Shown in pieces: positions 3,087-8,807 of a stretch of 64,000 bases of DNA. This stretch comes from Patellaria atrata CBS 101060 (lineage: Eukaryota > Ascomycota > Dothideomycetes > Patellariales > Patellariaceae), in the NCBI GenBank assembly GCA_010093705.1, contig MU006094.1, positions 1,401,550 through 1,465,549 on the forward strand, in the 5' to 3' direction. Made by a program: the position numbers and the translations under genes. How positions within the stretch are numbered: the first letter of the stretch is position 1; each line of letters begins with the position of its first letter. The notes below the pieces were generated by a model, which ran no database searches, was not told the DNA's origin, and saw only the letters and a program-made list of their open reading frames with translations.

Positions 3087-6000
3087 TTAAGATCCGGGTG
3101 GGCATAGATATGATGGCATCTTCAATCCTGGGTTTCGGCGTGACTCGGGTGGGAAGAACCAGTCATCAATATTCTGAGGATCTGTTCCATTTGATTGTGG
3201 GGCAGAAGTGCTCGAAGGGGGTTGCAGATGGTCTGGCATTTTCACCTTTGCATCTCGGCGAGATTCAGGAGGGAAGAACCAATCATCAATACTCTGAGGA
3301 GTAGACCCGTTAGCTTGTGGAGCCTCATAAGAGGTCCCAGAAGGTGGTTGAAGATGGTCGGGCATTTTAGCATTAGGATCGCGGCGTGATTCTGGGGGGA
3401 AGAACCAATCATCTATGCTTTGCGGAGTAAGGGGTCCTTTCTCTCCCGGTGCTGTAGTGTTTGAAGGAGGCTGTAGATGATCGGGCATTTTAGCATCAGG
3501 ATCTCGACGTGATGCTGGAGGGAAAAACCAGTCATCGATGGACTGTGGTTTTGGTGCAGTTGGCTGAGATGTTCCGGCCGCGGGTGGCGTCGAACCTAAG
3601 GATGGTTGAACAGCTGCCCCAGACGCTGGAGGCTGCCCTGTCGTTCCAGATGGCTGAGCGCTAGTCGAGGATGTTGTCCCTAAATGACCTGTTGCAGGTC
3701 TAGAAGAGGTTCCAGATGCAGGGCCCGTAGTTGTCGAAGGTGCTGTACCCGAAGATGGCGCCGTAGTAGACGCTGGGGTAATACCTGACGGTGTCGTCCC
3801 AGAGGCTACAGTTCCCGATGGTGTGCTTTCTGAGGGAGCTGTACCGGAGGGAGCTGTACCAGACGATGGAGCAGTGCCTTGTCCGGAGGAGGTCCCCGCG
3901 CCAGCTTGGGTTGGAATGAGAGGTGTACCCAAAGGCGCACCAGAACCAGGAGCTTTCAAACCAGTCTTAAAGGCTGGGTCTTCTGTCTGCTTCGAGCCAG
4001 CAATGGTTACACTCTTGGGCCCTTCATTGTCCTGGTTCTTGAGAGAGTTGTAGACTGCAGTGAGGTCATGACCTGCTGCAGTAGACTGTCCATTAAGATG
4101 AGCAACTCCTTTACCAATGCCATCGTAGTGTAATTTCCATGCTAGCAATTGTCAATACAGGATATGATTTCCAGAAGTTGAACTCACTTGTAGGGTCAAA
4201 AGTTAACCAGGACCAGCTATCATCCAAATAGCAACGCTCAGTGCCGACTTGAATACTCTTCAGTTCTCCCATTTGTCCTGGAGCAGGTCTGACATTTTTC
4301 AAACTTGCAACGACTTCTAGGAGACCCACACAATATGTGATCGAGATTTCTTTGCCAAGACATTCATGAGGACCATAACCAAAATGAATGTACGCGTCAG
4401 AAGACCTTCCAGGTGTAAACTTATCCGGTTCTGGCACAGCTGCGGGATCTAAACCTGCGGGTCCCTTTCAAATGTTAGAGTATGCTAGCGTTGATGACCG
4501 TTGGTTCTACTAACCAACAAACAGATAACTGCATCACCAGGTTTAAATTTCTGTCCATCGATCTCTACAGGGGCAGCGCAGACCCGTAAGTTACGTTGTC
4601 GACTAGTTAGACGTTGCGCTTCGAGTACATATTCACGAACGATCTTATCGGTAGTTGGGCCTCCAGAAGCAACAACATCCTGAATCTTTTCCCAATGATC
4701 GGAATTTTCTGGTAACAGGAAAAACTGTAGTATTTCGGAGAACTAACCATTTTATTAGTAGATAAGAACCGAATCGGGACAAGACAACATACCAAGCCAA
4801 CTGGAACGCCAACTCCTGCGAGGGCTGTAAGCCATACGATGTCTGCAGCTTCGTTGACAGTTTTTCCGTAAGAAAAAAGCTCCTTGACGACCTGCTGTCC
4901 GTACCATCTCAAAGAACCTGTAGTGACCTGAGAGACTGCAGTAGTTTTCCAGGGTAACTTGAGTATCTGAGGACTGACAACATCGGAAACCAGTTTCTGG
5001 GTAGTTTCAGTAAGGACAGCAGCACCTTCCTGAGCCCAAAGTCGACGCCGAAAGGCCATACCAGGGTCATTGTTGTTGAATCCCCAGACACGAACATTAA
5101 GTAGGTGCTTATACAGTTCCGGAATAGACAAAGTTCCATTTGGATGTTCTGGACCTTTGAGATCTAGACAGAACAAGTCTCCTAGAACCTGTGTATTGAC
5201 TGGGATAGCAATGCTTCGAATTATTAGCTGTATTTCTTCAGTAACTGATAAGCGTGGAGACTTACTCCTTTAATATATTAATTTGATTCAAATCACGGGC
5301 CATCTCGAACGTATTGACTTTGAGAAGAGAAGCAGCGGTATTCCTGACGAAGTTCAAAAGTAATTGTGGGAAGTCACTAGGTCCATAGAGAATACCCTTC
5401 AATAGTGCTCGTTGAGCCGAGTTCTTAGGAGCATCCCCACCGAGCATAAAATCAGAGTAGTCTTTCTTACCAGGGAAAAGATCGTTGAGAGCCGGAAGCC
5501 AAGGAACACGAAAGGACGTCTGATCCTTTAAGACCTTAGTGATGATGGCATGCTTTGTCAAGACTATTGGTTTTGGTGGTGGTTTTGGCCCTGCAAGAGT
5601 GTATTGATTGATAGTACCAATCTCTTCGGCTATTTGCTTGTTCATCTTCCACGTGAACATTGGTTGCATAATGTGCAAGCTATTATACGGATACCATCCT
5701 GGCACAGCCCGTTGGAAGAGCTTGTAAAACATAGAGCCTCCGAGTCTGCATTGCATCAGTCATAAATTTTAGTGGTAGTGTAGTGAAAGTCGTACACTTT
5801 GTAATCTTGTTGCACTTCTTGCATTCCCCAATTAGTCAATGTTGCCGGGGTATAGTCCTTCCTACGATTAGTTTCGACACCGTAATGCAGCTATGTACTT
5901 ACAATTGTGTAGAATCGATCAGACCGAACCAAGGTGATGGCATCGGAGAACACGGCGCGTCCTACAGTATACGGTGGACAACCGCCACAACCGGGATCCA

Positions 6001-8807
6001 TTCGAGGCTTTGCATCTTCAAGGAATAGACCAGGGTATAATTCTACCATGTCGGGAGAGTCGTAGAGATGGCGTAAAAGATTAGCAATTTCTGGATCTGA
6101 ATTAATGTCTTCCATTCGCTGATGACGGGTCAGTCCAAAAAAGTCACGGAATTCGTTGAGAGATGCCATGCGCCTAGAGTAATGTTATAGTAGTATCATA
6201 TGCACAGGAATGGATCGAGTAATACCATTTACGAGATTGCAAAATACCGAGTATTTCTACTACCTTAAGCGCTTTAGGTACCATCCTAGCACCGAATAAG
6301 CCTAGAATAATAGGTCAGTTATGATTGGAATCAATAGAAGTATGAGACGTACCAGCGGGGTCTTCCATTGCTGCAGTCATAACATTAACCAGGTCTTCGT
6401 CTTTAAATCGGCCGTCCGACCCACGTTGCAAACCAGCAAATTCGCGCTTGCTAGGATCTGGGTCAATATTTTGCTCGTATCTTAGCAAACCTTGTAGAAG
6501 TTCCTGAGGGGTTAGTTCACTAAGCTTCTTGTTGATGCCTGGAAACAGGCTGAGAAGGAACTCTTCGAGCCACTTCTCGTCGCGCAAAGAGATTGTGGAG
6601 TGGAAGCGATACAGCAGATTGAACTCTGCAGATACTTGATTACCGATGCCTCGTGGTACTTCGTCCCCATTGAGTTTCTTGATCTCGACACGAGGATCAA
6701 TTGTCCAAGAGCTTGCCGAATGATGCGTATTGGTTAGACCACGAAGGTAGTCATGCAAAGAAATATTGCAGTAAAGACCGTTGACAATCCTACGAATACA
6801 TATTAGTGAATGAACCAGTGCAGGCGAGTCCCTTCTAATTCACTTACAATCTTGCGGTTTGGAACAAATCGTTGTCTTGTTTAGCAATAGCAGCCTTCTT
6901 TTCTTCTTCATTCCTTGTGGGTGGAAGAGTGAAGCGGCCACCTTCATTGATCTTGAGCAGCATTTCTGCGACATAATTGTGGAATCGACTATACATGACA
7001 AGAACAACATTAATACCAGGGGGTTGAGCTAGCAAGCGTTTCTCGTGGAAAGTATCCGGTTTCAGCATACCACGTTCCATAGTCCGAATTTCTAGTTGAT
7101 CCTTGAGGCTCGAGCCATAGAGCGGGGCAAGATCTAAATACGATGAGGTGTCCGAAATATCAGGATTGAGACGGTTAGTCCTAAAAATATCTGATCTTGT
7201 TAACATACAGGTTGGATTGATAGGTCCGTTATTCTACATACCATGGATAATGATAGTCGCGTGGTAGAAGAGGACAGTGGATATACCTGCTGGATTCTCC
7301 TTGAACTTGCCCTCAGGCCTCGCCATGAGCACTAAAAAGCCATCAGGAACCACACCTGTATGCACAGATTTACTTGAACTCACTGTCGAATAAGAGGGCT
7401 GGATCAGGGCGAACACCATGGAGCTTCCCTACTCTCCTCGCGGTTCTTGCGTATGGTGTGCCGGCTTTTCCCAGATCAGGGTATAGGACATTCTAGGAGC
7501 GTCTTAGTCTGATATTTTAAGCGCTACACAAATCATGACCTACATTATAACTACCGTCTGGAGTCCGATATTGGAATTTGTCTCCTTGATAGCTTAAAGG
7601 CGGATGTTGGAGACTATTCCATAACCCCTCGATCATGATGTTAGTGAGTTGCTTTCGGGCTTTGCTGTTTGGGGGAAGGGACCCGGCAATCGCCACTATC
7701 TTTTCCATCTACGTATTGTTAGCAAGAAACGCACAAAGTGCCCAACATACTTACGGCCAAATCCTTGTCATTTATAGGCTTGCCTTTGGAAAAAGCGAAC
7801 TCTAACAGAGTTTTGATATCACCGCGAGCTACCTTTAATCCGACAGCTTTCAAATCTTGCACTACAGTTGAAGGTGTAGTATCTACACTTCCGTATGCGG
7901 CATCGACATCAAACTTGTCTCCACTAGACGGTTTAGGCTTTGTAGCCTGACCAATGCCTAACCATCCAAGCCCAGCGAGAATGAAAGACGGGAGCTTTGG
8001 GAGACCCGGAAGACTCGGAAATGGGATCTTTTTGAAGAGGGCAAAAATCCAACTGAATGGATTCCATGACAAGGACGAAATAGGCTTTATACCCGGGATC
8101 GAAATATGTGGGCTTGAAAGTGACCCCGGTAATTTGGGTGTTGAGATGCCCGAAGATGATAGATGTGGAGTTGACAAGTGCGGAATGGATAAGTGTGGAG
8201 CGGACCAATGGGGGGTGGAGAGGGAGAAATGCGGTGCTTTCAACTTAGGAACTGTGAATCCGTAGCCATTCGCGCTCACTTTCGGCCTTGTCAAGCCCGG
8301 GGAAGTAACGCTAAATCCAGGTAACCTCTTGCCCCCGAAGCCCAGCAACTTGTACAGCAGGTAAGCGATCGCAGCAAGCCCAAACACAACTTTTGCCTCC
8401 CTGTTAGATACAATTGTGGGGAGATACTTTGCGATAAGAGCGAATCTGCTTTCCCAGTGATCGATTGACTGTTTCAAGTTCAAAATCCATCCTTTCGTAG
8501 TAAGAAGATGATCACGCCATGTCAAAGTAGGCGCCGAAGAGCCGCTGAACAATGATCGAACCTTCGATTTCTTTAGCGTAGAGTTCGTCGGAGCTGTTGA
8601 TAGACCAAGTTTGGCGGTGATAAGGGGTTCAATGATGAGAGAGGTAATGGCGATCAAGTATTTCAGGGTTTTAGAGAATGGATGGACGGCATCAACCTTG
8701 ACCTCAGCAGTACCATTCAGAGGTAATGTTGTACTGTTAAGGGGTGCTGCTGTGCCATTCAAGTGGGCCGCTGAACCATTCTCAGATGGGGATATTGAGA
8801 TAGCCAT
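3087..8807 (-). CDS. Ppo-type fatty acid dioxygenase-cytochrome P450 fusion with long N- and C-terminal extensions
   Basis: Psi-factor-producing oxygenase family: an animal-type heme peroxidase domain oxygenates C18 fatty acids, and a fused P450 domain rearranges the hydroperoxide into diols or related oxylipins. My model has 14 exons: 8807-7755, 7708-7544, 7492-7384, 7331-7242, 7190-6848, 6789-6353, 6301-6226, 6173-5903, 5857-5796, 5745-5266, 5213-4793, 4742-4515, 4464-4188, 4141-3087, totalling 1,688 aa. Probable distal heme His is about residue 472 (IIIHDIF). Catalytic Tyr647 and proximal His650 lie in EFNLLYRFHS. The P450 thiolate is Cys1280 in FGYGPHECLGKE. Ordinary family members are about 1,000-1,200 aa. 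Here about 310 residues precede the conserved start and about 340 follow the usual end. A TTG-initiated extension to 8843 is rejected in favour of the ATG at 8807. Exact regiospecificity (8R or 10R) cannot be read from the sequence. Confidence 0.93.
3090..3548 (-). repeat. Four tandem ~40-residue repeats in the Ppo C-terminal tail
   Basis: Read on the - strand, the last exon ends in four copies of a unit built on PQSIDDWFFPPESRRD followed by KMPDHLQPP. They are repeat 1 at 3548-3426 (41 aa), repeat 2 at 3425-3300 (42 aa), repeat 3 at 3299-3180 (40 aa) and repeat 4 at 3179-3090 (30 aa, ending at the stop codon). The cores are nearly identical and the Ser/Thr/Pro/Gly linkers differ. The final copy has diverged most (SRRNPGLKMPSYL). 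Upstream of the repeats lies a low-complexity stretch rich in SGT, SAP and TAP motifs. The reading frame is kept through all copies, which argues for a translated tail. Confidence 0.92.
7860..8807 (-). other. Ppo N-terminal extension: membrane segment and PHLS repeats
   Basis: This part of the first exon encodes residues 1-316, ahead of the conserved Ppo start near TVVQDLKAVGLK. Residues 10-34 repeat a short LNGT/LNST unit. A hydrophobic stretch around 139-157 (FGLAAIAYLLYKLLGF) could span or dip into a membrane, and a weaker one lies near 48-62. Residues about 191-240 are built of short units ending in PHLS, PHWS or PHIS spaced about five residues apart. I know no domain like this. It may direct the enzyme to lipid bodies or membranes, which is inference. 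Confidence 0.7.

Follow-up and report, generated by a model that had tools for sequence, protein, structure and literature searches.

Four copies of a conserved motif on the C-terminal tail of a PpoD-type dioxygenase-P450 from Patellaria atrata: candidate docking sites on an oxylipin synthase

The reverse strand of the window, i.e. the whole 64,000-nucleotide stretch of Patellaria atrata CBS 101060 DNA analysed here, carries a Ppo gene whose last exon continues far beyond the P450 domain. In an earlier note, this extension was described as a linker followed by four copies of a ~40-residue unit, and the copies were taken for repeated docking sites for a partner or a membrane. This raises the question whether the tail truly belongs to the enzyme, and which role the repeats could have. 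To our knowledge, placement and control of Ppo enzymes in the cell are poorly known, and a repeated motif kept by selection in one subtype of Ppo is a concrete bait for partner finding. The accessible part of PMC3475224 describes effects of Ppo oxylipins on fungal development and toxin synthesis. A literature search covering few subscription papers found none on the motif or on a psi-producing oxygenase with a C-terminal extension; judging from sequence, the protein would be a known kind of enzyme, a PpoD-type dioxygenase-P450, bearing a four-copy tail motif that appears undescribed in the literature found.

Conceptual splicing of the gene (positions 3087–8807, reverse strand) yields a protein of 1688 residues from 14 exons (8807–7755, 7708–7544, 7492–7384, 7331–7242, 7190–6848, 6789–6353, 6301–6226, 6173–5903, 5857–5796, 5745–5266, 5213–4793, 4742–4515, 4464–4188 and 4141–3087). 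The 13 introns measure 45–58 nt and end in TAG or CAG in ten cases and in AAG in three. Their borders, a prediction from DNA alone, were set by hand and compared with the proteins of relatives, and the intron at 4792–4743 was placed through this comparison. Pfam matches to An_peroxidase (PF03098, 5.2e-28) and p450 (PF00067, 2.1e-9), which both pass the cut-off, reveal an N-terminal haem peroxidase and a C-terminal P450 and thus the composition of a dioxygenase-P450 fusion. This search, as well as the searches for relatives and for the tail in proteins, used a model of 1682 residues, six residues (outside the tail) shorter than the present one.

The search for relatives with the core enzyme returned 1196 proteins, the best 120 of which were used; the Camillea protein (P0001) shares 76% identity with the window protein over the core enzyme. 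Catalytic Tyr647 and proximal His650 lie within the signature YRFH, which is present in all 120 relatives listed (best 120 of 1196). The Phe between both residues, replacing Trp, sets PpoD apart from the other Aspergillus Ppo proteins, as stated in the accessible part of PMC2666749, and this PpoD mark is found in the window protein and in 120/120 of the listed relatives (best 120 of 1196). His472, within the conserved FYHATIIIHDIFRT, is likely the distal His; it is assigned by position alone, its distance to Tyr being approximately that between residues 265 and 441 in Aspergillus niger PpoD. The P450 part contains the ExxR motif (EAQR, residues 1210–1213) and the haem motif FGYGPHECLG (1273–1282) including His1278 and Cys1280. 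In its accessible part, PMC2666749 portrays A. niger PpoD as a peroxidase-type dioxygenase akin to linoleate diol synthase, with catalytic Tyr, proximal His and YRFH as in the window protein. However, A. niger PpoD comprises 1164 residues as compared to 1688 here, that part of the paper mentions no repeat tail, and it reports Gln rather than Lys downstream of the proximal His (RDEQ). The window protein has Lys at this place (RDEK), and among the nine rows compared Gln is found solely in the A. niger protein (P0018); this residue would thus be a mark of A. niger and not of the PpoD subtype. At least two further Ppo-like genes reside in the same genome, L013 (YRWH; its P450 part has ANQGQ) and L014 (YHWH), a lower bound because the Pfam search of the genome scored four matches at three genes including the window gene. 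The main open frames of L013 and L014 finish without such a tail, and six-frame module searches found nothing at either gene.

At its N-terminus, the protein has two hydrophobic segments, residues 51–69 (positions 8601–8657, reverse strand) and 140–158 (8334–8390, reverse strand), with Kyte-Doolittle means of 1.76 and 1.85, respectively, over 19 residues. Both are likely transmembrane by the hydropathy scale, the sole basis of this assignment, which suggests that the enzyme is located at a membrane; two crossings would leave both ends of the protein on the same side. Among eight relatives examined, three have two such segments and five have one. Between the second segment and the dioxygenase domain there is another repeat (8148–8240, reverse strand; residues 190–220), made up of APHFS, TPHWS, APHLS, IPHLS and TPHLS, with SPHIS following at residue 232.

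Whether the tail belongs to this enzyme depends on the last intron (4142–4187, reverse strand; 46 nt, GTGAGT...GCTAG). Once it is spliced out, the P450 frame runs on into the tail exon as TFDPTT-WKLHYDG. The reading frame 4151–3087 on the reverse strand comprises 354 codons without a stop, and exon 4141–3087 encodes 350 complete residues up to the stop codon. At protein level, the junction TFDPTTWKLH recurs in five relatives (P0003–P0006 and P0008), while P0007 has TFDPTTWTLH. The open frame and the junction residues shared with relatives thus bear out that the P450 frame continues into a long tail. If the last intron is retained, a stop follows 25 codons past TFDPT. In four annotated relatives (P0001, P0002, P0009 and P0010), TFDPTS or FEPTS is followed by unrelated residues, as with a retained last intron; these proteins leave the family pattern at that intron and end 13–71 residues from the landmark start. 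The cause would be either faulty annotation or a splice form that lacks the tail. P0010 and P0008 are almost identical in the core enzyme (tree branches of 0.004 and 0.003), so that the lack of a tail in P0010 seems to be a difference in annotation or splicing.

The tail exon opens with a post-P450 segment, WKLHYDGIGKGV...AAGHDLTAVYNSL...GPKSVTIAGSKQ (3987–4141, reverse strand), which resembles the tails of P0003, P0013, P0021 and P0034. That is, the Ser/Thr/Pro/Gly-rich linker that the earlier note put right after the P450 exists, but the first ~52 residues of the exon form a segment like that of related Ppo proteins. The linker itself (3546–3986, reverse strand) consists of 147 residues, 123 of which are T, S, P, G or A. 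It is followed on the same strand by the four repeat cores R1 (QSIDDWFFPPASRRDPDAKMPDHLQP, 3468–3545), R2 (QSIDDWFFPPESRRDPNAKMPDHLQP, 3345–3422), R3 (QSIDDWFFPPESRRDAKVKMPDHLQP, 3219–3296) and R4 (QNIDDWFFPPESRRNPGLKMPSYLCP, 3099–3176), the latter being the most diverged copy. The 26-residue cores are spaced 41, 42 and 40 residues apart, giving a unit of ~41 residues, and the intervening linkers of 14–16 residues differ in length and sequence. Pairwise comparison of the four 26-codon cores yielded pS values of 0.69–0.95 and pN values of 0.05–0.23 (pooled: pS 0.80, pN 0.14), which confirms the four ~40-residue repeats with a near-invariant core. The dS values between cores were 1.84, 1.86 or saturated, and Fisher tests of neighbouring pairs, each with only ~16 synonymous sites, returned p values of 6e-7, 4e-9 and 3e-4. 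With synonymous sites close to saturation and pN low, the copies are old, and their likeness does not stem from recent duplication or gene conversion. Hence, the core is under purifying selection in the window gene. Tandem Repeats Finder reported no four-repeat array at DNA level, in keeping with copies that are old and preserved in the protein; only a 15-base unit within the linker (3832–3860) was listed.

Does the core also occur elsewhere? A search of the P. atrata genome (28.3 Mb) with the array found one place, and a search with the double unit of the Leptodontidium protein (P0008) gave three matches, all in the window repeats (E 0.0036, 0.016 and 0.26); both searches score just first-look candidates, which limits their sensitivity. 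Scanning the genome for the DWFFPP codon pattern with at most one mismatch picked out the four repeats as perfect matches plus three places with one mismatch, as compared to four places in the reversed control. An RRD-MP pattern scan hit 44 places including the four repeats versus 42 in the reversed control and adds nothing. No significant Pfam or PDB match to the core was obtained; matches of the tail to RelB_transactiv (E 0.019, 15.7 bits, cut-off 27) and of one of 14 units to VIN3_C (E 0.25) were judged to be due to chance. When the tail was compared with 5.8 billion proteins, limited to those of ~925–2943 residues, none of 798 candidates reached E ≤ 10. This search missed copies in Helotiales, probably because too few exact words are in common, and these copies came to light when the tails of proteins matched by the core enzyme were inspected. 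With the Cadophora gregata tail as query, 5411 candidates yielded four proteins, namely the query and three Helotiales proteins already found. The protein searches were word-based and restricted to proteins of similar length, and cores in short proteins fall outside that scope. Within the P. atrata genome and these length-restricted searches, the answer to whether the core extends beyond Ppo proteins is that the module was found solely on PpoD-type enzymes.

The earlier note knew of no Ppo enzymes with such a module, but the core is not confined to the window protein. Four PpoD-type proteins of Helotiales, from Bisporella (P0004), Cadophora (P0005 and P0006) and Leptodontidium (P0008), carry two diverged homologous copies each in the same tail. 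A profile built from these eight copies scored the window copies R1 to R3 with 37.4, 37.2 and 36.3 bits and R4 with 19.3 bits, whereas the best of 5000 shuffled window tails reached 9.5 bits. Reciprocally, a profile from the window copies scored the eight Helotiales copies with 13.6–25.6 bits, the best of 5000 shuffles scoring 7.1. By score and by place after the P450, the window repeats thus belong with the Helotiales tail module, whose residues W-S-R-MP-PP recur in all 12 copies: the pattern reads [DT]W[FY][FYW]..[AEDS]S.R[DEN]....MP....PP and is invariant at seven positions (W, S, R, M, P, P, P). Of 24 residues, 14 agree between R2 and the first of the two copies in Bisporella. Nevertheless, the arrangements differ. 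The Helotiales proteins have two copies, of DWFY and TWYW type and unlike each other, as compared to four in the window; their unit is longer, with a D[LM]..[LI]DD stretch ahead of the core, and unlike the window tail they lack a long Ser/Thr/Gly linker. Among the four Helotiales proteins, mean pairwise identity (gaps counted) is 0.82 and 0.72 for the two cores as compared to 0.51 for the remaining 215 tail columns. In these four relatives, the core has thus been better preserved than the other parts of the tail, and together with the low pN between the window copies this upholds an invariant core with varying linkers. As WHWIPSSKS and the terminal KRKDMK are likewise conserved, the core is not the sole constrained part of the Helotiales tails.

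Past the TFDPTT landmark, 82 of the best 120 of 1196 relatives have 30–59 residues and 12 of these 120 have at least 250. Four of the latter 12 carry the core, all of them Helotiales. In total, the core is present in 5 of the 121 proteins compared (window plus best 120 of 1196), the next best match scoring 1.1 bits. No core was found in P0003, which is 72% identical over the core enzyme and has a tail of 374 residues. Random change of the core in related species, which according to the earlier note would refute its reading, is not seen at protein level in the four Helotiales proteins, but P0003 is without the core, indicating that at least one lineage can do without the module. To place these proteins, a gene tree was computed from 51 core-enzyme sequences (window plus 50 of the 120 relatives; quick SH-aLRT support, midpoint root). 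The window protein clusters with Camillea, Periconia and one metagenome protein (four rows, support 100), and this group joins six rows of Bisporella, Cadophora and Leptodontidium (ten rows, SH-aLRT 100). Four of these six rows have the core, and the gene models of the other two (P0009 and P0010) part from the family at the last intron. In the four-row group, P0003 is without the core, and the models of P0001 and P0002 part from the family close to that intron as well. One reading of these sequences is that the ancestor of the ten-row group already had the module, which was lost or eroded in P0003; alternatively, it may have been transferred between lineages.

Other long-tailed relatives carry different modules. 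Of five rescanned, four contain an H-type lectin domain (PF09458) in the tail, i.e. the proteins of Trizodia (P0007), Diplodia (P0013), Phyllosticta (P0021) and Neofusicoccum (P0032; 24.3 bits, cut-off 24), whereas the fifth (P0099) matches His_Phos_1 instead, perhaps a fused neighbouring gene. Like the window protein, these four extend far past a TFDPTTWK-like junction; unlike it, they lack the W-S-R-MP-PP core, and conversely the window protein has no H_lectin match in Pfam up to E 1. The C-terminal end of PpoD-type enzymes therefore seems to accept binding modules. P0014 and P0095 also bear the H-type lectin label in the homology listing, and the literature search, covering few subscription papers, found none joining an oxylipin dioxygenase and an H-type lectin. 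In four PpoD-type Aspergillus proteins (P0024, P0029, P0030 and P0037), which we take to be from section Flavi, the last ~28 residues include one core-like stretch, GNWFFLPHG.ENAAKQVPGH. The resemblance of this C-terminus to the core is not significant, since it scores 1.7–3.9 bits, whereas 5000 shuffled tails reached up to 5.9 bits and the eighth best of them 3.8.

What could the repeats do? AlphaFold2 modelled the 350-residue tail with a mean pLDDT of 48 and a pTM of 0.18. In ten-residue blocks, the linker scored 36–51 over most of its length, mostly near 40, R1 and R2 reached 59–73 and showed a short turn of helix at DDWF, and R3 and R4 scored 42–56. The model used a five-row alignment that was misaligned at its start and contained no aligned copies for R3 and R4, and the higher values of R1 and R2 may therefore reflect alignment depth. 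The prediction and the composition suggest that the tail is a disordered tether with short motifs, some of which are perhaps pre-ordered. We infer disorder, a membrane tether, a cytosolic side and multivalent binding of the tail. In the mechanism we propose, the C-terminal extension of a membrane-tethered PpoD-type oxylipin synthase would be intrinsically disordered and would carry at its end a linear motif of ~24 residues in four copies. All copies would recognise one and the same site, either on a partner protein or on adjacent molecules of the enzyme, and several weak contacts would keep the enzyme in a complex or at a place. This reading, i.e. multivalent docking motifs on the disordered tail of a membrane-tethered oxylipin synthase, we credit about as much as we doubt. 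More tentatively, and with doubt prevailing, the W-S-R-MP-PP core could be an undescribed linear interaction module specific to PpoD-type synthases, passed down at low copy number within one ascomycete group and expanded to four here, which clusters the membrane-tethered enzyme through multivalent binding, the C-terminus serving as a general slot for lineage-specific binding modules, be they lectin domains or repeated motifs. Docking motifs were compared from general knowledge, the LIR and dibasic cases alone on the copies themselves. The core of the Atg8-interacting LIR/AIM motif is aromatic-x-x-aliphatic. It was dismissed, as the window copies have Pro at position W+3 and the eight Helotiales copies have Val (four) or Gly or Ser (the other four) there.

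Other explanations have to be weighed against docking to a protein. The repeats could attach the enzyme to a membrane or lipid droplet, the aromatic WFF inserting into the bilayer and basic residues holding lipid head groups. The aromatic cluster indeed lies close to an Arg in each copy, and a title cited by PMC3475224 calls Aspergillus nidulans PpoA a lipid body protein. However, the units have net charges of -2, -2, -1 and 0 in the window and of -3, -3, -5 and -6 in the four of eight Helotiales units computed, and being neutral to acidic they disfavour such contacts. In addition, the enzyme already has its N-terminal hydrophobic segments, the oil-body proline knot of PpoA and PpoC is missing from A. 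niger PpoD according to the accessible part of PMC2666749, which also counts against the membrane tether proposed above, and attachment to a membrane or droplet would leave the conservation of S, MP and PP unexplained. We consider membrane docking quite unlikely. Of the earlier proposal of repeated docking sites, the docking part fits the conserved core, the varying linkers and the tail modelled as unstructured, but the membrane as target is disfavoured by unit charges of 0 to -6. Intramolecular contacts, in which the repeats would touch the dioxygenase or P450 domain of their own chain and alter activity or channelling, are also unlikely: a self-ligand would account for a module found on PpoD-type enzymes only, yet P0003, despite its 72% identical core enzyme, manages without it, and copy number differs between four and two.

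The tail might be devoid of function altogether, a low-complexity sequence grown neutrally, as the long Ser/Thr/Pro/Gly/Ala linker, the wide tail variation among relatives and the core-less long tail of P0003 would allow. Given a pS of 0.80 versus a pN of 0.14 between copies and homologous cores with seven invariant positions in four Helotiales proteins, this view appears very improbable. Even less credit is due to an artefact of the gene model, in which the tail exon would be separate from the Ppo transcript. The stop 25 codons past TFDPT upon intron retention and the four annotated proteins diverging at the last intron speak for it, but the tail frame is preserved by selection, P0003–P0008 have both the joined residues and a tail, and the near identity of P0010 and P0008 in the core enzyme points to annotation or splicing as the cause of the difference. 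Fungal peptide precursors typically consist of repeated units with dibasic sites, and for a precursor processed by Kex2 the dibasic site is expected to be conserved in every unit. Cleavage of the repeats at the dibasic SRR is scarcely credible here: RR occurs in all four window copies but in only one of the eight Helotiales copies, the rest having YR, HR, GR or SR, which leaves the second Arg as the invariant residue. Moreover, the repeats are fused to a haem enzyme, and the hydropathy scale detects no hydrophobic stretch ahead of residue 51.

Docking to a protein through several motif copies thus remains our preferred reading of the tail, the four-copy array being known from one genome. Next to the Ppo gene, on its 3' side, a small open reading frame on the forward strand (1493–1858) encodes 121 residues; its product begins with a hydrophobic stretch, contains several Cys and is possibly a small secreted protein.
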